Virus record (IMG/VR): IMGVR_UViG_3300042340_000379
Coordinates: 143,856-207,855 of that record
DNA from: a virus
DNA: 64,000 nt
Reading direction: 5' to 3' (one strand)
Shown here: one piece after another, positions 11,645-64,000 of the stretch
Position numbering within the stretch: the first letter of the stretch is position 1
How the letters are laid out: each line of letters opens with the position of its first letter
Translations under genes and position numbers: made by a program
Notes under the pieces: generated by a model
Seen by the model: only the letters and a program-made list of their open reading frames with translations
Told to the model about the DNA's origin: nothing
Databases searched by the model: none

Positions 11645-12286
11645 ATGCAAAAGCTCATTTTTACTTTAATTTTAAGGTTAGGTTTGCTAGGAGCTGTACT
11701 TAGCGCGGGATTTCTCCTAGCTTTAGGCAAACTACCTGGCAAGAATCAGCTAGCCGAGTTTGTGTTCTCAGATAAAGTTGATGTCGATGTGCGCGAGATT
11801 AAGCTGTCTGAGATCCAAGCAGTTGCTAAACTTATAACCGCTGAGCAAGATTACGAGGTTAATATTCCTCTGCGCTCAGACCGGGAAGTTTTAGGAACGG
11901 TTGTGGGTAGTACCAAGCTTATTTACATCGCAAGGGGAACCGTCTCTGCTGGAGTAGACTTAAGCAAAGTGACTATTAAGGATATTGAGAACACACCTGA
12001 AGGATTAGTCTTAAACCTACCCGCTCCAAAAATTCTCGAAACAGAACTGGATGTATTTAAGTCTGCAGTGTTCGGGGAAAGCAAAAGTGTCTTTGGGCCT
12101 GACGTACTTGATAAGCTAGTCGTTCAGGGTCAACAAGAAGGAAAGATTGCCATTATGGAGCAAGCTTGTAATAGCAACCTTCTCCTAGAAGCCGCCCAGA
12201 ATGCTGAAAAGAGCCTGGCCGCAATTATCAAAGTTAACATACCTAACGGTGATTGCTGGCAGGCTGAACAGACAAAAATGTCGTAA
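11645..12286 (+). CDS. membrane-anchored DUF4230-like protein
   Basis: A 213-residue protein with one N-terminal hydrophobic helix (residues 5-28, FTLILRLGLLGAVLSAGFLLAL) and an extracytoplasmic domain with the DUF4230 pattern: helix AVAKLITAEQDYEVNIP, then a strand YIARGTVSAGVDLSKV followed by VLNLPAPKI and a helical C-terminus with two Cys. DUF4230 proteins are widespread, often membrane-anchored and of unknown function. It opens the plus-strand block and is divergent from the tail chaperone gene. Confidence 0.65.
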   Translation: MQKLIFTLILRLGLLGAVLSAGFLLALGKLPGKNQLAEFVFSDKVDVDVREIKLSEIQAVAKLITAEQDYEVNIPLRSDREVLGTVVGSTKLIYIARGTVSAGVDLSKVTIKDIENTPEGLVLNLPAPKILETELDVFKSAVFGESKSVFGPDVLDKLVVQGQQEGKIAIMEQACNSNLLLEAAQNAEKSLAAIIKVNIPNGDCWQAEQTKMS

Positions 12287-30992: not shown

Positions 30993-31283
30993 TTAATCGT
31001 CCATATCTAACTGTATATCAGAAAACTCAACCCCTCCTGTAGAAGGAGAAGATATTTTTGACTGCTGATATTCGTAAGCAGTTGGTGCATAGTTAGCCGA
31101 AAATGACGGGCTAGACGATCTAAGTTGGGGTTCCGGCATTTGTTGAGAAGTTCGATAGCTCCTAAGAAGAAAGGCAAATACTTCAACGTTAGTAACTTTT
31201 CTCGAGAATTCTTCTTTGCTTAGCTCCTGCCTGATGTTTTCTAATTCTTCTTCTAGTTGACCCGTTAAAGCGATCTTTGCCAT
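30993..31283 (-). CDS. ParR-like adaptor protein, 96 aa
   Basis: A 96-residue protein encoded 6 bases after the actin-like gene. The N-terminal half (KIALTGQLEEELENIRQELS then VTNVEVFAFLLRSYR) is consistent with a ribbon-helix-helix fold; the C-terminal half is disordered, Ser/Pro/Gln-rich and ends in an acidic DIQLDMDD patch. In ParMRC systems ParR binds the centromere through its RHH domain and caps the ParM filament through its tail. Gene order and size match this. Confidence 0.65.
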   Translation of the reverse strand: MAKIALTGQLEEELENIRQELSKEEFSRKVTNVEVFAFLLRSYRTSQQMPEPQLRSSSPSFSANYAPTAYEYQQSKISSPSTGGVEFSDIQLDMDD

Positions 31284-31289
31284 CTTATC

Positions 31290-32345
31290 TTAGGCTCCCA
31301 CTGTTACAGCATGTCGGTTTAAGTTATCCAATGCCATAATGTTAGCAAAATCAGGGTGCTGAGGAACATAAATTCCAGCATTTGCGGGAAGCCGACCTTT
31401 AAACAAGTAAGCACAGCCACCAAACAACATACGACCGGAAGTAGGAACAAACTGATTAAAGTTGTTTCGAATCTCACCTTGAACTAACTCAAAGAAGTTA
31501 GCAAGAGCATGCTTGGTAAGATCGGTGAAGTCGATCATCTCATTGTTGTCAGCAGGGTAAAAATAGGTAGAGCGCCCATTCTCTCCAGGAATAGGATTAG
31601 CCAGCGCAGTCATGACATCATCAAGGTCTAGTTGACCTCCAACACGTTGGATCATCAAAGGATTGATTTTAATCATAGAAGCCAAAGCCTTACCACCAGC
31701 TAAAGTTGATCCTTTAACTCCATCATAGGAACTACGAAGTAGGATGTTGTTGCGAGGGCCGATCGCAGTAATATCCAGTGTGCCGCCGCCAATGTCAGCG
31801 CCGATCACATTTCCGACAGAAGGAAGGTGGTTAAGTTCACGAGCCATAATAATCGCGTCAACCCCTTCGGGCCGAGGAGCCTCAGGATAAATGCGAACTT
31901 TCATGTCAAATGTACCCTTGTCAGACGTATAGGTGTACTCAAAAGTATCAGTGAGTTTTTCGCGAAGGAACTCGCCTACAGTTCGGCCATCGGTTCGGCG
32001 CTTACTTGGGTCAGGTAGACTCCATTGAAGTACAACCTCGTAATTGGTTTTGTTTCCAATGGGGCCAAGAGTAGAAAGGAGAAAAGGAATAAAGTACTTG
32101 GGATCTAGCTTATCGCGGTTAACCAATCCACTCGCGGCGGCACCATACTCAGAAGCGCGATCGCCAATATGAAAGCGACCAAAATCCCCCTCAACAATAA
32201 TAGAGTCGCTGCCAGGGTCAATTGCGTCACCACCAGGAAAGATGGGAGCAACAATAGATTTTAGATAAATCGGCTGGGTGTGAATCCCATGACTAATAGC
32301 CAGAGTAGAAAAGTTGCCAACATCAATAGCGTGCTGAGTTTTCAT
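31290..32345 (-). CDS. ParM-like actin ATPase for plasmid segregation
   Basis: Start set at ATG 32345 (351 aa) since the upstream extension begins with TTG. Actin-fold motifs are visible: phosphate-1 AIDVGN at residues 6-11, phosphate-2 GADIGGGTLD at about 182-191 and the adenosine motif MLFGGCAYLF at about 306-315. Such filaments push sister plasmids apart together with a ParR adaptor, which is encoded next. The upstream region is a phased GGGCCC array where parC lies in ParMRC loci. Virulent phages rarely encode this pair; it points to a plasmid-like lifestyle. Confidence 0.85.
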   Translation of the reverse strand: MKTQHAIDVGNFSTLAISHGIHTQPIYLKSIVAPIFPGGDAIDPGSDSIIVEGDFGRFHIGDRASEYGAAASGLVNRDKLDPKYFIPFLLSTLGPIGNKTNYEVVLQWSLPDPSKRRTDGRTVGEFLREKLTDTFEYTYTSDKGTFDMKVRIYPEAPRPEGVDAIIMARELNHLPSVGNVIGADIGGGTLDITAIGPRNNILLRSSYDGVKGSTLAGGKALASMIKINPLMIQRVGGQLDLDDVMTALANPIPGENGRSTYFYPADNNEMIDFTDLTKHALANFFELVQGEIRNNFNQFVPTSGRMLFGGCAYLFKGRLPANAGIYVPQHPDFANIMALDNLNRHAVTVGA

Positions 32346-32408
32346 ACAAAAATTTGGGTAATAAGTGTTCAACAGACTCCCTTAGTATAAGCTAAATTTT
32401 TGGGTTGT

Positions 32409-38600: not shown

Positions 38601-41127
38601 CCTCCCCGAGGCTGCTGAGTCATTCGGTCGCGCTCCTGAGGGCACTTTGGTTGATGGCGTTGATGTACGTGCCCTGCTGCGTTCACTTAATGCTGAGGCA
38701 TTTGGTCGTGAGGGCATCATTAAAGATGCGCCCAACGACAGCCTCTATGTCAACATGCTCATGTTGAATGAGGGTCGCTACGAGCAACTCCGTAAGTTGT
38801 TCATGACCGCATTTGGTCAAGTTATATGGATGAGCGTTGAGTCTGTAGAAATGCAGATCTTTGTCAACAAATTCTATTCTGCCAACGTTGCTGGTGGTGG
38901 CAAATGGCGCGAGCTGTCTGAAGCTGAGCTGGAAACAGTTGCTAAAGATGGTCTACCCAAGGGTGCTCGCGGCTTCTGCGACACCGCTGATATCAATGAC
39001 CAGAGCAACATTCTGGTTACCTACACTGAGAACGGGAAGTGCATGTCCCTTCACCGTCAGTGGGTCTACGCTTCCACGCCCGAGCTTGGCATGTACATGC
39101 TAGGTAAGCCTGAGTACACAACTGTGAGCCAGGCCGTTTCTGAATCCAGCGTTATGGGCAACGTCATCTATGACCTGGCCCTACGTAGCAACAAAGCTGC
39201 GTTGGAATTCGTCAACCGTGGCGAAATCAACCGCGTGCGCTACTCTCTTATCCATCGCCTAGCAAAAGGCCTTCCTATTGCTATTGATGGCGGCGAAATT
39301 CCTGTGATGAAAATCCAGGGCTCGATCGCTGAAATCGTGGGTAGTTGCAGCGCCAACTTGGCTGCTGCATACGCGGAAGGGCCTAACCAGTTCTTCCAAG
39401 TACTCCTGGAAATCTGCCAGGACAAAGTGCTGCGCTTTGAAGCCGACAACAGCACCTGGGTTAGCATCTACCTCCCTCTTCTCGCTTCTTACGGCGGGCA
39501 GGATCTTGAATCCAACGAAGGCATGACTCTTGCTAGCAAAGTCTATGAGTTGATGACCTCTTGGTACAACGGGGCCGACCCTAAGTCTCAGGGCATCAAA
39601 GTCATCGCGGGGGAAATCTCCAAGATGATGAATAAGTTGGCCGATGGTGGCCGGATGCAGAAGTCTTTGACCTACGGCCCTAAAGGCGTAGGTTTCAAGG
39701 TCGCCGCATTGCCCAACATTCCTACTGGGGAAGTGTGGGTCTATGCTGGCGGTGAAGTCTTTGCCAAAATGCGCAAGCTGTTTGGCAAAGACTTTGCTGA
39801 AAACGCCAAAACTGGCGATAGCTACATCGGTCTGGTGCGTGCGCCTATGACTCGTGTTGCTGTGCTCAAAGTCGTAGTCATCACCAAAGATGACAACCGC
39901 GCCTTGGCCTACAAACTCAATGGCGTGCAGGGCTACATCAGCCCATTCTCCCAGTATTTCAACATGGGAGACTTTGACGGTGATGGTGACTTGTCTATGG
40001 ACGTTAGTGATATCGTCCGTAGCGGTGAGCTTCAACAGGACTCTTTTGCGTCCATGCTCAAGTTCCAGCGGGAAACCCTGGGCTACGACATGATGCTACC
40101 CGAGTTCTGGAAGTCTGCTGCACCCGAGCAGTACTACGCCGACCACTTCTATGTACAGAGCTACACCTCTGTCATGGCTAAAATCGGTGGGCGCGGCCTG
40201 AACTTGGAATCTTCCGAGAAGGCCAACGTCATCACCCGTGCTCAACTGCTAGCCGGTGAGCACGGTGCAATCGGTCAGCAGACCGGCTATGTGTCCAGCT
40301 CATATCAAACCCAGTTCTTTATCACGCTGGCAGCTGAGATTCTGGGTCACCACAACGTAGCTGCATTCGAGTGGATTAAAGGCTCCACCTATCAAACCCA
40401 GGCCTTGTACGAAGTAGCGTTAGGCGGCTACTCTCCTGATATGTGCCGCGTGGCGTTTGGTCTTCTTGACCGCGCCTTCCGTTTGAGCACCACTCAAGAT
40501 TGGTGGCTAAAGCGTGTTGACGCTGAGGTTGCCGGTATGTTGCTTGACGGTACCAAGCACACAGCTTCTTCTCTCCTAGGTACCGAGCCTATGGATAAAG
40601 AGAAGACCCTGTTCACTTCCCTGAGTGAAGGCCAAGTGTTCCCCGCAATGCAGGCTTGCGGTTTTGGCTGGAATGGCTTTGAGGATGACCGCAACCAAGT
40701 GCAACAGTTTGTTAAAGCTGCTGCGCTCGCTGGCGTTGCTAAAAAGCGTGTCAGCGAAATCAAGAACGATGATGCTGGAATTGGTAGCGGCACCTACCAA
40801 AAGCTGGTGAAAACCTACGGCAAGAACATGGCCCTTGTCATGTGTCTTGCTCAACGTCTAATGGACATCAGCCGTAATAAGGCTGAGTTTGGTAAGGACT
40901 ACGACAACGAACTCCGCGCTGAACTCGACCAAATGCTCAAAGGTGTTAAAAGCGATTCTATTTCCGTCGATCTCTATCGTCGGATTGAGAAGACCCTAGA
41001 CGACTCTGTGTCCGCAGAAGTCGTAAGCTATGACAGCGCTGCTATCAACAAGCTTTGCCGCTTTGTTGAAACCGAAGACGCTGCTCCCATTACTCTGGAG
41101 GTTGCTGCCCAAGTTATCGCCAATTAA
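35638..41127 (+). CDS. 1829-aa protein with RNA-polymerase-like DFDGD loop
   Basis: ATG 35638 follows GGAGAAC. Near residue 1445 the sequence reads NMGDFDGDGDL, and 44 residues before it is VRAPMTRVAV (R1401-A-P). In cellular RNA polymerase beta-prime the same order is NRAPTLHRL, then NADFDGD about 35 residues later; three Asp (1445, 1447, 1449) would hold the catalytic Mg. The N-terminal 30 residues are basic. No zinc finger or bridge helix was recognised by eye. The likely type is a single-chain YonO-like DNA-dependent RNA polymerase; alternatives are a related RNA polymerase fold of unknown template. Followed at once by repeat array B. An early-region polymerase is a reasonable inference. 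Confidence 0.7.
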   Translation: MKSFTKSLNSFVTRSFSVGKRQMISKVKIVHSKREFISRVSGTFRQRLNPATPKSIFAWDDVQLSLAFTYGQGSLGIKADRANAGIGFGSDTKPKSKSVKSDSIKIAHTFKEILAQTKATAVKVFEAISTVSKLITPDLLLSSTGKQLYGAALKNRIAKLVREGYAAPVSQPAAVKAVDFMALAQERCAQSLAAIEAAMGFTSTGTVVAMLQSGQEPAPIARQSASNMENISLFELRAKEFPAPSVEELMSDLNGDRATRAEKCKAILAKHNLNTVGELIARGMVSRTRKDFWLDSASTAFSVMLLGHTLGQMPAPLDFKAGNTYLVGFPLFDRTSGDKQISPYKCVIGDIDLLMASVRREEHDIKNLSSPATKKVFKKHFKVLEDNCKALGLWLSKDEVANMAAALAINEVATKPTTFAVLASHLCEVLDAMGMMPNRVYAVNAAWNLPRYKADRVIVRKLVTALLRAQEGIGMTGFKFIDMSTSEQTGELFDEVVICGQRFVMDDEGVIFDDAGTSKRLNQIMLAAPIKVGRSLHPNEFSILSAHDVLLYLLDNIVLPMLNRKDVKSDKSLEISRVEETNARAAQSIKSFIGKSMPLNERAVALGVEDAASSILTSGEISCVVKWHQSLFRRNIAAEGSAEIAIFKEGMLVGPDSPYKRSADATEYMIFSQMELKTSTNFTDYHPLIEPMIAHGKVIQPFGNMNAVSLSAHGTHYANLDVSIQKEAVKAFWANQGLDEQQLRSKFNLEGVVGDVWMHIAEETLNFLSYKGSKRFKRSANLYAQVTSFAFEETSRFQWSGHVDHQITGLALKAVLAPSYVFSGPGMAYMNSHKRAQYEMRYPLAGGMHDYYDRAAVFSNFAIDDTAIITNPLTGWSHIDLDIKVREGQETGLFIVNEHGHQVPLKAEHNGVLCKIRFRTVDKFSVNGVLECRLFYKVSEYDFKLRAGYKAMTTYHDGSIFDHNAYAPEWDIIIPGDANKTLDLLTCFLPEAAESFGRAPEGTLVDGVDVRALLRSLNAEAFGREGIIKDAPNDSLYVNMLMLNEGRYEQLRKLFMTAFGQVIWMSVESVEMQIFVNKFYSANVAGGGKWRELSEAELETVAKDGLPKGARGFCDTADINDQSNILVTYTENGKCMSLHRQWVYASTPELGMYMLGKPEYTTVSQAVSESSVMGNVIYDLALRSNKAALEFVNRGEINRVRYSLIHRLAKGLPIAIDGGEIPVMKIQGSIAEIVGSCSANLAAAYAEGPNQFFQVLLEICQDKVLRFEADNSTWVSIYLPLLASYGGQDLESNEGMTLASKVYELMTSWYNGADPKSQGIKVIAGEISKMMNKLADGGRMQKSLTYGPKGVGFKVAALPNIPTGEVWVYAGGEVFAKMRKLFGKDFAENAKTGDSYIGLVRAPMTRVAVLKVVVITKDDNRALAYKLNGVQGYISPFSQYFNMGDFDGDGDLSMDVSDIVRSGELQQDSFASMLKFQRETLGYDMMLPEFWKSAAPEQYYADHFYVQSYTSVMAKIGGRGLNLESSEKANVITRAQLLAGEHGAIGQQTGYVSSSYQTQFFITLAAEILGHHNVAAFEWIKGSTYQTQALYEVALGGYSPDMCRVAFGLLDRAFRLSTTQDWWLKRVDAEVAGMLLDGTKHTASSLLGTEPMDKEKTLFTSLSEGQVFPAMQACGFGWNGFEDDRNQVQQFVKAAALAGVAKKRVSEIKNDDAGIGSGTYQKLVKTYGKNMALVMCLAQRLMDISRNKAEFGKDYDNELRAELDQMLKGVKSDSISVDLYRRIEKTLDDSVSAEVVSYDSAAINKLCRFVETEDAAPITLEVAAQVIAN

Positions 41128-41133
41128 TCGCTA

Positions 41134-41286
41134 GGGCCCTATAGGGCCCGCAAAAGTCCGATTGGGGCCCAACGCGGGCCCTTTACGTCCCGTGAAAGTC
41201 CTTTTAGGGCCCGCGTTGGGCCTTTCATGTCCCGTCGAGGGCCCTAAACGTCCCGCAAAAGTCCGATTAGGGCCCGTCAAGGGCCC
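41134..41286. repeat. GGGCCC phased array B
   Basis: Begins 7 bases after the stop of the 1829-residue gene. Unit GGGCCCGCAAAAGTCCGATT then GGGCCCAACGCGGGCCCTTTA; GGGCC blocks recur every 10-11 bases and complete units every 21. About 150 bases. It ends before a leader at 41287-41618, and there is no gene in it. Confidence 0.85.
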
Positions 41287-41507
41287 AACCCCTATTTTGC
41301 TGCGCTCTACCCTGCGCGGTTAGAGGGGGAATGTTAGTTTTATTTGTTTGTTGTTAGCAGGTTTAGCTAATGGCAGTGGGTCTGTGTGTTATGCGGTTGG
41401 GCGGCAGGATGTAGATGCTAATAGGTATTTATGGCAGCACTATTATTTAATTGGAGCCTGGTCGCAGCGATCGCGCTGTGTATCTGGCTCGACAAATGAT
41501 TTGCCGA

Positions 41508-41543
41508 CTGCCGTCCCCTGTGCGCGATGCGTTGGGACGGCAG
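41508..41543 (+). repeat. CTGCCG/CGGCAG hairpin in the leader 41287-41618
   Basis: Stem CTGCCGTCCC / GGGACGGCAG (10 bp, 16-base loop). The 330-base stretch after array B holds no credible gene; an 81-codon frame at 41348 runs through it but crosses this hairpin and has no ribosome site. A second CGGCAGTTTGTAATCC lies at 41583. These are probably leader structures or attenuators for the gene at 41619. Confidence 0.6.
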
Positions 41544-41618
41544 CGGGAGAAAGAAACGCAAATTGCCGTGACTTAATGTCCGGCAGTTTGTAATCCGTTG
41601 AATTAGAGACTTGCTGCT

Positions 41619-42299
41619 ATGTCTACTTCCTCTTCTGTCTACACCGAAAATTTCTCCCTAGAGCACGAAGTCACTTGCAGCCACTTTGCTGCGCAGCTCG
41701 CAGCCAAAACTGAAGGTCGCTGTCTGGAAGTCTCTCGTGAGCTCGTCCGTGGGAAAGATCACGACGCGCTCTTTAGCCTAAGCTGCATTTTCCCAACCGA
41801 GAGCGATAATGGGGTTGTAGTACAAATCGCTCTCAGTGGGTACCTAGATGCGTCTAGTATGAACATCAATGGAAACCTGTATAGGATGGCCGTGCCGTTC
41901 ACAAAAGGTGACCAGCGCCAGACTGACAAGCCCATGCGAATCAAGACTGGGGCTATGAAGCCTCAGGAGTTCAAAGGTCTTCTCTCTGACGAGACCATTC
42001 TCGAGTTGCAGAAGTGGGCGGAGTTGAATGCTGGCGCAAAACGCGCTAGCTTTGACCTGGAGATTCCTGAAGGGGTGGATCTGTATTTCACTTTGTCCTT
42101 CCGTAAAGGAAAGGAAAACCCTTATGCAGTAGACCCGCTGCATATCCTGAAAATGGATATCATTGGTGGTCTCTTGCAGGAGGTTGAGAAGCCCTATGGG
42201 ACAAAAGTTGGGGGTGTGGAGGATTCCCGTTTAGCTGCAAAGAGAGCTGCCCTTGCTGCTTCCACCCTGCCCACGCCTGCTGACGATGACGTGATGTAA
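41619..42299 (+). CDS. hypothetical protein, 226 aa
   Basis: Preceded by a long structured leader (41287-41618) rather than a simple SD. The protein is mixed alpha/beta: an acidic N-terminus, a strand region with SLSCIFPTESDNGVVVQIAL, a helical middle and an Ala/Asp-rich tail. No family recognised. The stop is followed by a CTGCCG..CGGCAG hairpin at 42313-42343, a boundary element shared with its neighbours. Confidence 0.6.
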   Translation: MSTSSSVYTENFSLEHEVTCSHFAAQLAAKTEGRCLEVSRELVRGKDHDALFSLSCIFPTESDNGVVVQIALSGYLDASSMNINGNLYRMAVPFTKGDQRQTDKPMRIKTGAMKPQEFKGLLSDETILELQKWAELNAGAKRASFDLEIPEGVDLYFTLSFRKGKENPYAVDPLHILKMDIIGGLLQEVEKPYGTKVGGVEDSRLAAKRAALAASTLPTPADDDVM

Positions 42300-47161: not shown

Positions 47162-47179
47162 TGTGGCTAAAATAGGGTC

Positions 47180-47353
47180 GGGCCCTAAACGGCCCGCGAA
47201 AGTCCTTTTAGGGCCCGCGAAAGTCCTTTTAGGGCCCGCGTTGGGCCACTTAGGGCCCGTCAAGGGACGTAAAGGGCCCGCGTTGGGCCGTTTAGGGCCC
47301 GTGAAAGTCCGTTCATGTCCCACGCTGGGCCCTAAACGGCCCGCCAAGGGCCC
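47180..47353. repeat. GGGCCC phased array D
   Basis: About 170 bases of the same unit, including GGGCCCGCGAAAGTCCTTTTA twice and GGGACGTAAAGGGCCCGCGT. No gene in it. The 217 bases after it (47354-47570) hold the CATTCACGGCAGG and CAGTCACGGCAGG motifs and a CCCTTAGCTTCGGCTGAGGG hairpin, but no credible gene. Confidence 0.85.
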
Positions 47354-47570
47354 TAGCCTTTTTCCAGCAGCCATTCACGGCAGGTTGAGTTGGGAGATTC
47401 GCAGTGGCACTGCCTACCACCCACGGGTTGAGGGTGGCACGACCGACCAAAACGCCGAAAAGCGAGACAACGTCGTCCCCTAACTCAACTGCAGAGCCCT
47501 TAGCTTCGGCTGAGGGTTTCTGCTATCAGCCAGCAGCCAGTCACGGCAGGGTGTAATGGAGAACTTAACC

Positions 47571-53867: not shown

Positions 53868-54149
53868 ATGCACCTTAAGCCTTTTATGTCTCCCGAAGAC
53901 AGCCCCAATATGTATTTTCTCGAACTACAGCAGCAGAATCATCCAGAGCTTTTGCCCGGAGAGTTATTCCTCTCCAACGTAAAAATGGAACGCGTCGCCG
54001 CGATTGAGGCTGGCGAGGACGAGTTCTACAGCCAGTACGAAGGCGTCCGTGTCGGGGCAATGGCCTACGACAGTCTGCGCAGACACAGACCCAACGAGCG
54101 CCCCGTCTTTCATCGGGGCTACAGAAAATCGCATACAACCAACTACTAA
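53868..54149 (+). CDS. hypothetical protein, 93 aa
   Basis: ATG 53868 is preferred over ATG 53844, since AGGAGG lies 7 bases upstream of it. Acidic protein with an N-terminal LKPFMSPEDSPNMYFLELQQ and a basic tail. No recognised family. The GGGCGAAGA-x-ATG start context recurs at 54152-54171 and 56038-56056. Confidence 0.55.
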   Translation: MHLKPFMSPEDSPNMYFLELQQQNHPELLPGELFLSNVKMERVAAIEAGEDEFYSQYEGVRVGAMAYDSLRRHRPNERPVFHRGYRKSHTTNY

Positions 54150-54168
54150 ACCAAGAAGGGCGAAGACG

Positions 54169-54297
54169 ATGATCGACACTATCATTCGAGTCGTGTGTAT
54201 AGCTGGCCTGGTCGGGATCGCAATCGCGGCCATCAAGTCAAAGCCCAGCGGTCAGCGCCGGATCAATAATGGGAGGCCGGGGCGACGTATTCGATAG
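54169..54297 (+). CDS. small membrane peptide, 42 aa
   Basis: ATG 54169 preceded by AGGGCGAAGACG. One hydrophobic segment (IIRVVCIAGLVGIAIAAI) and a basic tail rich in Arg and Gly. It could be a small membrane-associated protein. Lies within a longer frame that is not credible upstream. Function unknown. Confidence 0.45.
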   Translation: MIDTIIRVVCIAGLVGIAIAAIKSKPSGQRRINNGRPGRRIR

Positions 54298-54367
54298 CGC
54301 GATCGCCCACAACCTGACCATATAACCACACTACGGGATTCGCCCCGATAGAGCGATCGGAGAAGTG

Positions 54368-54691
54368 ATGACAAAAGAGATAGAGCGACCCGCCTTTAGG
54401 GAGATCGCAAGTCGGCGCAAGGAGCAGCAGGAAGAGCGTTTAGAGGCCATGCGATCGGAGGCTAAAGCTGGCCATCCGCAATGGCTACAATTCCAAGAGG
54501 CTGTAGAAAGCATTAAAACTACTAGTGTCGCTAAAGTTGAATTAGATCTAGGCAATTATTACGGGACTCTAACCGTAAAGGTAGTGAGCGATCAGCACTA
54601 TGTTGGACTGGAGAACTGGAACGGCTGGTCTTGGCTACCCATCTCGAAGGCGCTATACGACCTATTGATCCAAGAGCTAGGTGGCAGCTAA
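54368..54691 (+). CDS. hypothetical protein, 107 aa
   Basis: GGAG 5 bases before ATG 54368. Basic and Glu-rich N-terminal helix (REIASRRKEQQEERLEAMRS) then a strand-rich segment (GNYYGTLTVKVVSDQHYVGL). No recognised family. Confidence 0.55.
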   Translation: MTKEIERPAFREIASRRKEQQEERLEAMRSEAKAGHPQWLQFQEAVESIKTTSVAKVELDLGNYYGTLTVKVVSDQHYVGLENWNGWSWLPISKALYDLLIQELGGS

Positions 54692-54746
54692 CCCATCAAT
54701 ATAAAAGACTGGTATCAATTGCATAATTTTCACTAGAGGAACAATC

Positions 54747-54938
54747 ATGAAAACTTTGACCGTTAGAAGCGTCGACACAGATCTCAACCTGGTTGAAATT
54801 AACGACGGAGTTCTCGTCGGGTACGAGCATTTCTGTTCGATCGCAGACACTCTACCATATAAAGGAGACGTATACAAGTATGAAGGCTCTGCCCAAATGG
54901 GCGGGCAGCTAACGAAGGCCACCAAGATTCAATCATGA
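54747..54938 (+). CDS. hypothetical protein, 63 aa
   Basis: ATG 54747 preceded by AGAGGAAC. Short, beta-rich (LTVRSVDTDLNLVEINDGVL). Its last codons overlap the ATG of the next gene (ATGA), so they are translationally coupled. Unknown. Confidence 0.5.
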   Translation: MKTLTVRSVDTDLNLVEINDGVLVGYEHFCSIADTLPYKGDVYKYEGSAQMGGQLTKATKIQS

Positions 54939-55309
54939 TCAACACCACCATCCCAGCCATCTGCTTCTTCGCAGAGGCCTATCGCGACAACAACCGCATG
55001 ACCAAGGCCTACGTAGGCTATTGGGAGAAGTGGTTCTGGCATATTGGAGTTAGCGGGAAGGTGCCCCGCGACCCGACCAAGACGCCTGCCCATGCGATCG
55101 TCCACTACATCCCAGGTGGTCTTTACAAGGTGTTTCCTGGCACTCTAGGAGAAGACCCCACGGTATGTTTCAAGAAGGCCATGATCTATGCCTTAGGGCA
55201 GCATCGGCCATTCAAAAGCGACCCTTCGGTTTGCCACGATCGCTGGCAGAATGAGATATTACCCGCGATCGCGGAACTACAACAACAATTGGAGGCAGTC
55301 CATGTATAA
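54935..55309 (+). CDS. hypothetical protein, 124 aa
   Basis: ATG 54935 overlaps the TGA of the previous gene. Contains a WEKWFWHIGVSGKVPRD segment and a C-terminal helix. No recognised family. Its last codons contain the AATTGGAGG that serves as SD for the next gene at 55302. Confidence 0.5.
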   Translation: MINTTIPAICFFAEAYRDNNRMTKAYVGYWEKWFWHIGVSGKVPRDPTKTPAHAIVHYIPGGLYKVFPGTLGEDPTVCFKKAMIYALGQHRPFKSDPSVCHDRWQNEILPAIAELQQQLEAVHV

Positions 55310-55487
55310 ACTTTACGCCCAGCAGTGGAACACATTCATTAAAGAAGGGACTCAGCAAGAGTGCTTGGATGAGGCGATCGCTCGAGGGTGGATAAATCCA
55401 ACGCCCGACACACGACCCGAAAATTGGTATTGTACCGACAGTTTTGCCAATGCCTATTGCAGCATCCGACTTGCTACCGAAGCTTGA
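55302..55487 (+). CDS. hypothetical protein, 61 aa
   Basis: ATG 55302 with GGAGG 8 bases upstream, overlapping the stop of the previous gene by a few bases. A mixed, acidic small protein (TQQECLDEAIARGWINPTPD). No family recognised. Confidence 0.5.
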   Translation: MYKLYAQQWNTFIKEGTQQECLDEAIARGWINPTPDTRPENWYCTDSFANAYCSIRLATEA

Positions 55488-55762: not shown

Positions 55763-55941
55763 GCGATCGCACGAACCATGGCGAGCTAGAGGTAATGCAA
55801 CTCAAAAGGATGCAGCCATACCTCGAAGCCCACGGCATAACCAGTCCTAAGAAGATTGACAACTACTGGATGGGCCACTACCCAGACGGGACGAATCAAG
55901 TAATTCCCAGCAGGGTTTACGAGCCGCCGTTCCCTGGGTAG
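55759..55941 (+). CDS. hypothetical protein, 60 aa
   Basis: ATG 55759 preceded by AGGTGGAAA. Basic and Pro-rich 60-residue protein (HGELEVMQLKRMQPYLEAHG). The ATG overlaps the stop of the extended upstream frame (ATGA), supporting the reality of that frame. Unknown function. Confidence 0.5.
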   Translation: MSDRTNHGELEVMQLKRMQPYLEAHGITSPKKIDNYWMGHYPDGTNQVIPSRVYEPPFPG

Positions 55942-56053
55942 CCGATCCATCAACCACCCCGATCGCGCCCTTCCATCCTGCATAGCCCAGGCTCCCACCA
56001 GTCTGGGCCTGACCACGTCCACTACAAGCAAATGCCCAAGGAGGGCGAAGACG

Positions 56054-56311
56054 ATGAAACTCTTTATGGCACCTGACGAAGTATTCCAAGAATGGCCTAA
56101 TATTTTTCAAGATGAAACGTTAATTGAAACGAGTGATGAAAAGTACCTCTGTGCTCAAGCGTTATCAGCGTGGGCTATGGTGTGTGGCCAGAGGGGAGAA
56201 GTACCGACAAATTTTGGAGATGTGCTAGCTAAAGTTGCGAATAGACTTGGTGTTTCGGGAACGCCTGATTCTTTCTCTGATTTTGCTAAAGAAAAAGGCT
56301 GGATTACTTGA
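56054..56311 (+). CDS. hypothetical protein, 85 aa
   Basis: ATG 56054, with AGGAGGGCGAAGACG upstream, the recurring start context. An acidic 85-residue helical protein (FGDVLAKVANRLGVSGTPDS). No family recognised. Confidence 0.55.
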   Translation: MKLFMAPDEVFQEWPNIFQDETLIETSDEKYLCAQALSAWAMVCGQRGEVPTNFGDVLAKVANRLGVSGTPDSFSDFAKEKGWIT

Positions 56312-56374
56312 CATGCGAAACGCCCAAAAAATTACATACGACCAACTACTAACCAAATAAGGAAATCAACACTG

Positions 56375-56863
56375 ATGTATAAAAACGCGATTGATAGCAA
56401 GAAAGTTGAACTAAAAGCCCAGAGGGAACTTGAGTTCCAAAAGAATGCGGAGAGCAAAAAGGATGCAATTCTAAAAGAGATCGAAGCGACTGTCCCAATT
56501 TTCTGGGACTGCTACCAGAAACATATCAAGGCTGGATTTTCTGCCTGGTGGAATGCTGAAGATGTTTTAGGAAGTGGGTATGGCGTTCCAGGCATTGTGA
56601 TGTGGGGGCATCTATTCATAGGTGCAGAGCGAGACTCTGACCGCTGGCGGCTTCGTATTGGATCTTGGAGCAATCAGCAGCAATATACTGGTTCCATGAC
56701 AAAAATCGAGTGCCAGCCAAAGGTTTCAATCGACGCTATGAATAGCCATCGAATGGCAATTGAGGAGAGATTTTCAGAGGGTGTCCAAGAAGCAATTTCT
56801 CTAATTACAGCTCCCGGCAACAAATCGAGCTTTGCGTCTTGGACTGGCCCGGATGAACTGTAA
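56375..56863 (+). CDS. hypothetical protein, 162 aa
   Basis: ATG 56375 with AAGGAAATC upstream. A helical N-terminus with Lys/Glu repeats (KKVELKAQRELEFQKNAESK), an aromatic middle (FWDCYQKHIKAGFSAWWNAE) and an acidic tail. No family recognised. Confidence 0.55.
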   Translation: MYKNAIDSKKVELKAQRELEFQKNAESKKDAILKEIEATVPIFWDCYQKHIKAGFSAWWNAEDVLGSGYGVPGIVMWGHLFIGAERDSDRWRLRIGSWSNQQQYTGSMTKIECQPKVSIDAMNSHRMAIEERFSEGVQEAISLITAPGNKSSFASWTGPDEL

Positions 56864-56908
56864 TCCCAAGAATGCAATTAATACTCAATATAAAGACTGG
56901 TACATACT

Positions 56909-57713: not shown

Positions 57714-57927
57714 CCCCACCCCCGACCAACTGATTAACTTATTTCAGCCCACTCCCTGGCAAGCCGGGAACCCGCCAGGGCCGGGGTGGTATTTGGTGAC
57801 GGTAGACATTAGCGGTAGCCGGGAAACCGAGTATGCCTACTGGCTACCCGGAGCCTGGGACGATGCGGAGAATGTTGTAGCCTGGCAACCCCTGCCGGAA
57901 CCGTACCAAGGTAAGGGAAAGGCTTGA
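57706..57927 (+). CDS. DUF551-like small protein, 73 aa
   Basis: ATG 57706 overlaps the previous stop. The C-terminal stretch PGPGWYLVTVDISG and NVVAWQPLPEPYQGKG is the W.PLPEPY pattern of small phage DUF551-type proteins. Its stop is 2 bases before array G. Function unknown in the family. Confidence 0.6.
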   Translation: MTNPTPDQLINLFQPTPWQAGNPPGPGWYLVTVDISGSRETEYAYWLPGAWDDAENVVAWQPLPEPYQGKGKA

Positions 57928-57929
57928 TA

Positions 57930-58072
57930 GGGCCCGCAAAAGTCCTTTTAGGGCCCGTCAAGGGCCTTTTACGTCCCGACGAGGGCCCTAAAGGGCCCGC
58001 AAAAGTCCTTTTAGGGCCCGTCAAGGGCCTTTTAGGGCCCGCAAAAGTCCTTTTAGGGCCCTAAAAGGGCCA
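57930..58072. repeat. GGGCCC phased array G
   Basis: Unit GGGCCCGCAAAAGTCCTTTTA and GGGCCCGTCAAGGGCCTTTTA in alternation; about 143 bases starting right after the stop of the previous gene. Similar to array B. No gene inside. Together with arrays A to F it makes seven arrays in 25 kb. Confidence 0.85.
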
Positions 58073-59722: not shown

Positions 59723-59972
59723 AGTTCTTGGCTTAGATGTTGTCAACAGGTTCAACCCTGGCGGGATAGAAGCCACTCTGAAGATGTGGCATGAAGACCC
59801 TGAGCAGGTTGGCCGATGGGTAGTGTTCGATGGAGTTCAGGTTTCGCTGAGAGATCGCCTGAACAACCTGCGAGAGGGGGAACGATCGATCTGCCTGGTC
59901 GAAGAATTAGCGTCAGTCGTCGGGGACAATGCACATCTAACCCTGGGGGAATTCCTATACAACGACTTCTAA
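59715..59972 (+). CDS. hypothetical protein, 85 aa
   Basis: GTG 59715 with AAGGAGG 6 bases upstream, overlapping the previous gene. Acidic helical protein (NRFNPGGIEATLKMWHEDPE). Convergent with the HNH gene (overlap of 4 bases at 59969-59972). Unknown. Confidence 0.55.
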   Translation: MDKVLGLDVVNRFNPGGIEATLKMWHEDPEQVGRWVVFDGVQVSLRDRLNNLREGERSICLVEELASVVGDNAHLTLGEFLYNDF

Positions 59973-60259
59973 CTCTTCTTCCACCGCCTCCACCCTCTAG
60001 GAGTAATACTCTCATGGCGAGGGGTGGTTCTTCTTCCGGGACGCCTCTCGCCATCACTTAAGCGCTCTAGATTTCCCTTATGATTGATAGAGCGCTTTCC
60101 ATTTTTGTGGTGAACCACAGTCCCATCGTTAGGCTTAGCACCGGCTATCCGACGATAGGCCCGTCGCCCATCTTTCCATCGACCATTACCCGTGCCCAGG
60201 ATGGCTGCTAGGCGCTTCTTCTTGTGGGCAGGTGACTGTTCGTAGCCAGGTTGAGGCAT
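59969..60259 (-). CDS. small HNH-type endonuclease-like protein, 96 aa
   Basis: Basic minus-strand protein with an HNH core: RAYRRIAGAKPNDGTVVHHK, then NGKRSINHKGNLERLSDG. The HHK..N..N pattern after DGT and the NLE.L.. end is the usual small phage HNH family that cuts or nicks DNA. It interrupts the run of plus-strand genes, as free-standing homing endonucleases do. Confidence 0.65.
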   Translation of the reverse strand: MPQPGYEQSPAHKKKRLAAILGTGNGRWKDGRRAYRRIAGAKPNDGTVVHHKNGKRSINHKGNLERLSDGERRPGRRTTPRHESITPRGWRRWKKS

Positions 60260-61661: not shown

Positions 61662-61700
61662 ACAAATCAACCGCCGAGGATTCCTCGGCGGTTGATTTGT
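61662..61700 (+). terminator. 19-bp palindromic hairpin, likely terminator
   Basis: ACAAATCAACCGCCGAGGA and its reverse complement around one T; the T-rich 3-prime arm ends GATTTGT. It follows the 59-aa gene and isolates the PolA gene's leader. Confidence 0.75.
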
Positions 61701-61837: not shown

Positions 61838-62051
61838 TGCTGGTCTGCCATCTCGGCAGTGAGATCCAGCTATGGATATAGTAGCAGATTTAAGCTAAAT
61901 AGCAAGAAATTTACTTTGGATAGTTGGGCAGAATCAGCCTATTTTTGTGCTTACAATAGGTGCAAGGCAATAAAAAAGCTGCGTGGGAACACAGCTTTAA
62001 GAATTACTTGTTTGGGAATCGACAGTCTATCTATCCACTCACTATTTTAAC

Positions 62052-63821
62052 ATGAAACAGAAAGCTGCATCGCCCTCCAGCAGTCAAAGTATCCAAGATT
62101 TAGAACTGAATCAACCTTGCGTGCCCCAAAGTATCCAGGATGCGCTAGCTAAGCTACCGTTAGAAACTCGGCAAAGAATAGAGAAGAACGTAGACAAGCT
62201 TAACCGAGGAATAGATAACGAAATCCTTAGACAAATTATTCACAAAGCTAATCCACAACTGTCTCATGCTTATGGAGTGGCTCTTGTTCGCAGCATACTT
62301 TGGCGTATGGAGCGGGACGCCCATCTATCCAAGATTAAAGAACCTATTTATAGACGCAGCATCCCTGTAAGTATTCTATGGTCAGCATTAAGTGGGGAGC
62401 CCTCTCGCATTTATAACAGCAATGCTAGGGCTCAGAAGTTTATGGGGGCTATTACCAAAGAGATAATCGACCCTCTATGGAGAAGCCGACTTATAACGAC
62501 AGTTCCCCATAACCGTAAGCAGCATAGGTGCCGAATCTTTAACCTAAGGCACGTCGCAAAAACAATCCACAACAGAGAACAAAAACCCCATATGCACCCA
62601 TTTGACTACAACCGCGTTGAAGATTACCAACTACCCCCAGTGGGAGTGGGTCAAGAGAAACTGCCTTTGCTCTGGTCTAAAGACAAAGCAAAGTACATGG
62701 CTATCACAAATGAGACCGGGGAATACCTCAGAAACTGCAAGTTCAGATTTGAGAGCATTGCATGGGATCGCATTGGGCTCTATTGGGCTAAGCAGTATGC
62801 AGACATAACAGCTAAATCTAGGGTGGCCTGCGATGCAAAGATCGGCTCGATCAAAAACGCTATTGAGGGTCTTGAATGGAAAATGGATGTTCAGCATACC
62901 GGGCAGTATCACATCCAGGGCCCAGGCCGTATGCATACCATTGGTGGAAGCATCGCGCTGCCAAAAGCATTCAGGCGGCTCTTTATCAGCCCTGTTAACA
63001 AGAACAACCTAGTACTCGAACTTGACCTTAAAAGCGCTCAGCTCGTTATCCTGAGTAAGTTTTTGGGGTGTACTGAGATCGTAAGCGCACTCCAGGACTG
63101 CCATAGAACGGGTAAATCTATTTGGGGTCTTATACAGCCAGAAGGGGAGTGTGTACCTAAGCGAGCGCTGAAAGTCCTAACCTATGGCCTATGCTTTGGA
63201 GCCAAGCGAGAAGACCTTCTCTATCTATGTAATAAGGAACTCTGGAAGACAGAATGCCCATTCGAGTTCTCAAAAGAAAGCCTAGATAAAGTTTTGGATG
63301 GGTTTTTAGCTCCTTTAGTCATTGAACGAGACAAATGGATGGCACGGTACACAAGCAAAGAGCTCAAAAAGAGAGGCACTAAGCTAACACACAAAAATGC
63401 TCTTGGGCTCGTATTTCAGGCAGGTAAAGAGCTGAAAGAATACGAGGCAAAGTGCAAAAAGTACGGGAAAAAGCCCCTGGATACTAAGATTGCAGGCCGT
63501 TTGCTGGCGCATTATGCCCAAGGTGAGGAGCAATTCATTATGCAGAGCTTCATTGCTAGCAGCGTGATGAAAGAGAACATATTAGACTTTAGCTATGACG
63601 GCCTAAGCGTTGAAGTTCCTATGAATTATGCAGAGATAACAGAACGATACGACGCATGGTTACAGGAATTTGACCCTGACCATCACTTTGAGTACTGTCC
63701 CCTATGGTTCAAACAGAACCCTGACCTAGATGGGCCCGACATGCTAGGCAATATGCTTCAGGAAAATTGGGAGGAGAAGTATAACCAAAAACCAGAAAAC
63801 CTTAAATATTTTCCTGAATAG
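62052..63821 (+). CDS. PolA-like DNA polymerase without exonuclease domains
   Basis: A 589-residue protein whose second half has the family A palm/fingers motifs: motif A LELDLKSAQL around D325, motif B K374-VLT-Y378-GLCFG, which aligns position for position with the KxxNFGxxYG motif of DNA polymerase I, and motif C SYDGLSVEV around D516, where YDG replaces HDE. A 320-residue N-terminal helical domain is not an exonuclease by eye. The gene ends before a perfect 18-bp hairpin. Probably the plasmid's replication polymerase; a phage T7-type RNA polymerase is the less likely alternative since motif C lacks HDS. Confidence 0.7.
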   Translation: MKQKAASPSSSQSIQDLELNQPCVPQSIQDALAKLPLETRQRIEKNVDKLNRGIDNEILRQIIHKANPQLSHAYGVALVRSILWRMERDAHLSKIKEPIYRRSIPVSILWSALSGEPSRIYNSNARAQKFMGAITKEIIDPLWRSRLITTVPHNRKQHRCRIFNLRHVAKTIHNREQKPHMHPFDYNRVEDYQLPPVGVGQEKLPLLWSKDKAKYMAITNETGEYLRNCKFRFESIAWDRIGLYWAKQYADITAKSRVACDAKIGSIKNAIEGLEWKMDVQHTGQYHIQGPGRMHTIGGSIALPKAFRRLFISPVNKNNLVLELDLKSAQLVILSKFLGCTEIVSALQDCHRTGKSIWGLIQPEGECVPKRALKVLTYGLCFGAKREDLLYLCNKELWKTECPFEFSKESLDKVLDGFLAPLVIERDKWMARYTSKELKKRGTKLTHKNALGLVFQAGKELKEYEAKCKKYGKKPLDTKIAGRLLAHYAQGEEQFIMQSFIASSVMKENILDFSYDGLSVEVPMNYAEITERYDAWLQEFDPDHHFEYCPLWFKQNPDLDGPDMLGNMLQENWEEKYNQKPENLKYFPE

Positions 63822-63879
63822 GATAAGAAAAACTTATATAGTACGAATATAGTACATAAAAAGTTTAATAAATAAGCTG

Positions 63880-63930
63880 AGCTTATGATCAATATAACTA
63901 AAACTTATATTGATCATAAGCTTTTATTTT
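63880..63930 (+). terminator. 18-bp hairpin terminator after the polymerase gene
   Basis: AGCTTATGATCAATATAA and its reverse complement with a 7-base loop, then TTTTATTTTTTC. The 60 bases before it (63822-63879) are AT-rich and hold direct TAGTAC repeats; the 3-prime side to 63970 is also AT-rich. An origin nearby is possible but not shown. Confidence 0.75.
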
Positions 63931-63971
63931 TTCTATTTTGAATTTCTAAAAAAAATATATTTTGTGGCCCA

Positions 63972-63982
63972 GGGGGGGGGGG
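63972..63982. repeat. 11-base poly-G tract near window end
   Basis: Eleven Gs follow GGCCCA, 18 bases before the window edge. No other G run of this length occurs in the window. It could be an assembly junction or tailing artefact. Confidence 0.6.
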
Positions 63983-64000
63983 AGCCATTCGGAGGTCGCT

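Follow-up and report, generated by a model that had tools for sequence, protein, structure and literature searches.

A divergent family-A DNA polymerase-like protein of a large cyanophage and of small Synechococcus elongatus plasmids as a candidate plasmid-type replication protein

The stretch of DNA analysed here (the window, 64,000 nucleotides) makes up the final 64 kb of an IMG/VR record of 207,855 bp, and close to its end, at 62052-63821 on the plus strand, it carries an ATG-initiated open reading frame for a divergent family-A DNA polymerase-like protein of 589 amino acids. This protein has no above-threshold match in Pfam, PHROGs, NCBIfam or PDB chains, and Pfam gives no match to PF00476 (DNA_pol_A) in particular. 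Its N-terminal part of approximately 283 residues (62052-62900, plus strand) contains no recognised domain, and Pfam finds there none of the nucleases whose absence had already been noted in the preliminary description of the sequence. Two sub-threshold matches, to Aca2_YdiL (Pfam, residues 9-60, E 0.0055) and, weakly, to AcrVA1, occur in the window protein only, and conservation of the N-terminal part with the plasmid homologues described below is limited to a few positions (I104-P105, G115, K136, H158-x-x-R161). The AlphaFold2 model of the window protein, obtained with a single sequence as input, has a mean pLDDT of 35, too low to be of use. That these N-terminal 280 or so residues form a DNA-binding part is our guess.

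The affiliation of the C-terminal half was assessed by aligning with hhalign a profile of four sequences, the window protein and three plasmid homologues, to a profile of 16 family-A DNA polymerases, among them those of E. coli, T7 and a Thermus phage and two cyanobacterial plasmid PolA proteins. The two profiles match over 231 columns (probability 89.6, score 59.3, E 1.9e-6; all hhalign E-values given here are each for one comparison), which places a polymerase domain of fingers and palm at residues 284-531 (62901-63644, plus strand) with all family-A motifs in order. Sixty column-shuffled profiles scored 22.6 or less (best E 0.1), the reversed profile scored 18.5, and E stayed at 8e-6 or better whichever member of the profile was dropped. 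The C-terminal half alone reached E 2.6e-7, so that the family-A palm, whose absence from this half would have spoken against the preliminary description, is present; the N-terminal half gave a non-significant score of 19.0. A profile of two T7-type single-subunit RNA polymerases yielded a score of 19.4 over 11 columns (E 0.29), also not significant. In runs with single sequences the window protein scored 40.6 versus at most 31.2 for 46 other proteins of the record, and because this margin is modest, the family-A result rests on the profile. Two of the plasmid homologues show PF00476 below threshold in the part with motif C (E 0.06 and 0.2; 12.7 and 11.0 bits versus the curated cut-off of 34.3), and since these scores lie below the cut-off, the window protein is to be seen as a remote relative outside the curated family. 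Taken as profile evidence, these data make it very probable that the product of the reading frame is homologous to family-A DNA polymerases, and the earlier description of a PolA-like protein without a recognised exonuclease holds.

The profile alignment also bears out the reading frame and the motifs as they had first been read. R293 (62928-62930, motif GR-M-H-T versus GR-L-S-S of Pol I) corresponds to R668 of E. coli Pol I and is invariant in all four family sequences. Motif A, ELDLKSAQLV (63018-63047), contains the catalytic D325 (D705 of Pol I), has Q330 at the position of the steric-gate glutamate E710, and replaces R712 with V332. In motif B, or the O helix (K370-R-A-L-K374-V-L-T-Y378-G-L-C-F382-G383, 63159-63200), K374 is the counterpart of K758, while K370, Y378 and F382 stand for R754, F762 and Y766. 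Q490-G491 (63519-63524) are equivalent to Q849-G850 of the QGT motif, the equivalent of N845 is alanine, and motif C reads S-Y-D516-G-L (63591-63605) versus V-H-D882-E-L in Pol I, with Y515 for H881 and G517 for E883; all these elements are on the plus strand. The four-sequence alignment keeps ELDL[KC][SC]AQL, K-x3-K-x3-Y-x3-FG, QG and SYDGL, and R293, D325, K370, K374, Y378, F382, Q490 and D516 are retained at only 24-28% identity to the window protein. The altered motif A (KSAQ) and motif C (YDG instead of HDE) are thus real, with Q330 and YDG found in four of four sequences, and a loss of D325 or D516 in homologues, which would have refuted the initial reading, is seen in none of them. Compared with the polymerases of PF00476, the protein shares fingers and palm, the catalytic aspartates, the O-helix lysine and the QG and GR motifs, whereas it lacks exonuclease domains, differs by the E710 to Q, HDE to YDG, R712 to V and N845 to A changes, has an unrelated N-terminal half and is about 16% identical in the profile alignment. 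The changes in motifs A and C could lower activity; the Thermus phage Tt72 polymerase is active with serine as the third residue of motif C (PMC9324360). Judging by the conserved residues, we consider it likely that the polymerase is catalytically active.

By tblastn, homologues occur on four plasmids of 24-32 kb, all from S. elongatus: pMAS, which is the 24-kb plasmid of UTEX 3055, a 24-kb plasmid of PCC 11802, pIITB6_3 and pIITB7_1. In the C-terminal half they are 30-32% identical to the window protein. The PCC 11802 and IITB6 copies have identical score and span, which leaves four independent sequences including the window protein. The homologues WP_126148393.1 (pMAS), WP_338438782.1 (pIITB6_3) and WP_338463092.1 (pIITB7_1) are annotated as hypothetical. 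They resemble the window protein in polymerase-domain homology, motifs, similar length and the exonuclease-less layout, and differ from it in that they lack its C-terminal tail of about 40 residues and are encoded beside parA/parB on small plasmids, while the phage copy has no such neighbours. No relatives were found among phages, nor in pattern-based scans of viral contigs and genome contigs, which were also the only coverage of cyanobacterial chromosomes; since such scans are insensitive to distant relatives, this is not proof of absence.

The gene adjoins parA/parB on all three plasmids examined (pMAS, pIITB6_3 and pIITB7_1). pMAS and pIITB6_3 share one arrangement, in which parA and parB are followed, after a gap of 640-790 bp, by the polymerase-like gene and then by a convergent hypothetical gene; on pIITB7_1 the gene is flanked by that for CyRepA1 and by parB/parA in convergent orientation, and 2.5 kb with no annotated gene precede it. 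All three plasmids have long intergenic regions upstream of it. Their cargo differs (type I-E CRISPR, type I-MYXAN CRISPR and DISARM), and an all-against-all comparison of the listed genes left only ParB, the polymerase-like protein and a DUF4351 protein common to all. Neither pMAS nor pIITB6_3 has an annotated Rep, and relatives of CyRepA1 or CyRepX1 were not found on them (about 1 kb of pMAS lay outside the stretch examined); the unnamed proteins checked there comprise a WD40 protein, one with a weak HTH match, and unknowns. The cumulative GC skew of pIITB7_1 has its minimum about 760 bp upstream of the polymerase-like gene, whereas in both 24-kb plasmids the skew has a maximum, not a minimum, close to the gene. 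With CyRepA1 and the polymerase-like protein together, pIITB7_1 possibly has two Reps in one plasmid. The publication on pMAS, in its excerpted text, mentions a 'plasmid maintenance region' and there names no replication protein (PMC9239245).

The record itself is a cyanophage of about 208 kb and not a plasmid. It encodes a Mu-type portal and a large protein with weak matches to the Microcystis phages Ma-LMM01 and MaMV, and shows long synteny with a related phage of 172 kb (G002). The first 144 and the last 145 bases of the record (window 63856-64000) are identical apart from one G in a homopolymer, and from this 145-bp end overlap the contig, classed as linear, is therefore effectively circular with about 207.7 kb. 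The phage has its own PolA in two reading frames, at record positions 53990-55372 (3'-5' exonuclease part) and 55877-56875 (palm part); it is also of family A but, unlike the window protein, has the 3'-5' exonuclease domain, retains HDE and DYSSQE in full and has a palm part that passes the PF00476 cut-off. The break in this PolA falls after the GR motif and before motif A, where a small reading frame is interposed, and G002 shows an identical split. A DnaG-type primase and an SNF2-type helicase are also encoded by the phage, as is a ParM/Alp7A-like actin (31290-32372, minus strand) conserved in G002. Directly after the actin gene there is a small reading frame (30993-31283, minus strand), a possible partition pair with it. 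Phage actin-like proteins can serve segregation or replication, for example AlpC of CGP3 (PMC4446434), and phage-plasmids with partition genes are known from environmental viromes (PMC4490671); by this analogy the ParM-like actin fits a plasmid-like state without proving one. The polymerase-like gene is absent from G002 and from another related phage, G003 (both records are possibly incomplete), the genes flanking it have no viral relatives that we could find, and no parA/parB or other recognised plasmid gene lies beside it.

A perfect hairpin with a stem of 18-19 bp, a 7-nt loop and a T-rich tail (63879-63923, plus strand, fold z -6.1) lies 3' of the gene and is read as an intrinsic terminator because TTATTTTTTC comes after the stem; once the circle is closed, several hundred bases with little coding potential follow the gene. 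The downstream AT-rich region and the hairpin reported previously, the latter at 63880-63922 if its stem is counted as 18 bp, are both real, but the hairpin is best taken as a terminator and not as an origin element. Upstream, a weak 10-bp stem with a T-rich tail (61975-61998, minus strand) lies just before the gene and could end an antisense RNA, and a 19-bp perfect inverted repeat at 61662-61700 is terminator-like on the minus strand. An antisense-RNA control of the CyRepX kind was considered for these minus-strand terminators and set aside, as the plasmid homologues show no such pattern upstream. Two 26-nt direct repeats (25 of 26 positions identical) at record positions 275-300 and 410-435, about 420-560 bp downstream across the contig junction, are found nowhere else in the record and have no known counterpart on the plasmids. 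At the phage gene there is no iteron array that we could find, Rfam gives nothing credible near it, and the GC skew of the phage has no clear extremum there.

From this analysis we suggest, with about even chances in our estimate, that the protein is a plasmid-type replication protein of cyanobacteria, encoded by one gene and built on a family-A polymerase without exonuclease, which is carried here by a phage. A Rep role is plausible from the gene context. The features by which we would recognise a Rep (a plasmid location, a place beside partition genes, retention while the cargo changes) are found for the plasmid homologues and not for the phage copy, and for pMAS and pIITB6_3 the role follows by exclusion, not by proof, because no other Rep candidate was found; on pIITB7_1 the protein is perhaps accessory, since CyRepA1, from a recognised Rep family, is also present. 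The initiator-polymerase of a plasmid family that the preliminary description had envisaged thus stands as far as the family is plasmid-borne and adjoins parA/parB, but the element here is a cyanophage with a conventional PolA, and that PolA and the phage primase count against the proposed role. In the proposed scheme the polymerase domain of the C-terminal half, which by its sequence keeps the two catalytic aspartates and lacks a proofreading part, is joined to N-terminal residues that would most probably recognise an origin or contact a partner; once recruited to an origin close to its own gene, the protein may make or extend the first DNA primer, after which host enzymes would continue replication. 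In S. elongatus the gene belongs, along with parA/parB, to the backbone of small defence plasmids, and the cyanophage, which already encodes a PolA and also a ParM-like actin, may have acquired it, perhaps for a circular plasmid-like state or, alternatively, as another initiation route.

The closest functional precedent is CCPol of SCCmec, a family-A polymerase without exonuclease domains in a replication module, which primes DNA de novo with its partner MP (PMC7581432). The likeness consists in an exonuclease-less family-A polymerase on a mobile element, thought to serve replication of that element, and by this comparison the window protein might prime de novo. CCPol works with MP and the helicase Cch2 of its own operon, whereas the window gene is single, encodes an N-terminal part of about 280 residues and lacks such partners: the phage gene is not part of an operon and is closed off by a terminator, and the neighbours of the family are par genes, a convergent hypothetical gene and unknown reading frames. 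CyRepA1 and CyRepX1 are Rep proteins of cyanobacterial plasmids (PMC10899382, PMC9978351) of 1000-1100 amino acids with helicase-type domains (PMC10899382); the likeness of the present family to them would be the Rep role on such plasmids, putative here, and the polymerase-like protein has no sequence or profile similarity to the CyRepA1 and CyRepX families.

Other explanations have to be weighed against a replication role. The protein could be an accessory repair or translesion-type family-A polymerase, cargo of plasmid and phage and not an initiator, which would agree with the lack of proofreading domains, with umuD genes also carried by the 24-kb plasmids, with a Y-family polymerase on pIITB6_3 and with CyRepA1 as another Rep on pIITB7_1; we regard it as rather unlikely, since the gene has been kept with ParB while the rest of the plasmid was exchanged and pMAS and pIITB6_3 show no other Rep candidate. 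The changes of the glutamates of motifs A and C and of the arginine of motif A, together with alanine for N845, may raise the thought of a polymerase fold that has lost catalysis and now serves as a DNA-binding initiator, but this diverged family has kept the two metal-binding aspartates and the lysine of the O helix without exception, which speaks against a dead fold because a dead enzyme need not keep them, and such re-use seems to us improbable.

Still less probable is a primer-making enzyme using ribonucleotides, an idea invited by the invariant glutamine for the steric-gate glutamate, as E710 of Pol I blocks ribonucleotides (PMC9324360); glutamine may still exclude the 2'-hydroxyl, and the profile matches DNA polymerases and not the two single-subunit RNA polymerases it was compared with. 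An assembly chimera, with a plasmid fragment joined to the phage contig, would be suggested by the position of the gene less than 200 bp from the contig end, next to a stretch of higher GC and more HIP1 sites, and by the fact that no other viral contig was found with it. We hardly believe in such a chimera, however, given that the contig closes on itself by the overlap just downstream of the gene, that it is flanked on either side by genes with homologues in G002 (at record 196794, a weak match of 25%, and at 11820) and that no recognised plasmid gene accompanies it.

To our knowledge, the replication proteins of many cyanobacterial plasmids are unknown, and the polymerase-like family now offers a named candidate Rep for the defence plasmids of the pMAS type. 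As its only known relatives adjoin the partition genes of small Synechococcus plasmids, the protein may represent a type of plasmid replication protein that has not been described before. We found no description of a family-A polymerase as plasmid Rep in the open-licence literature. A bolder form of the proposed role is tentative, with chances that we put somewhat below even: a new class of plasmid initiators, each a single protein that unites an origin-binding part with a self-starting exonuclease-less family-A polymerase, occurring both on cyanobacterial defence plasmids and in a large cyanophage perhaps persisting as a plasmid. If the Rep role holds, the family would join CCPol as the second example of family-A polymerases that initiate or prime replication for a mobile element, would provide vectors with another replicon, presumably unrelated to those of CyRepA and CyRepX, and would link a jumbo-size cyanophage to plasmid maintenance.

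A few observations on the rest of the record may be added. An accessory region at about 36-61 kb of the window (record 180-205 kb) exceeds the remainder of the phage genome in GC content, at about 0.50, and in HIP1 octamers, and is mostly devoid of homologues in G002. Short reading frames of GP-rich repeat units at 47163-47483 and 57809-58024 are probably tandem repeats rather than genes, and a reading frame at 59969-60259 (minus strand) contains, by eye only, an HNH-like stretch, VVHHKNGKRSINHKGNLERL. Elsewhere in the record, at 40921-42072, 86774-87964 and 94900-96075, an N-terminus resembling that of IscB (PLMP) and two proteins resembling TnpB were recognised, also by eye, so that several nuclease genes of the IS200/IS605 type appear to be present in one phage.
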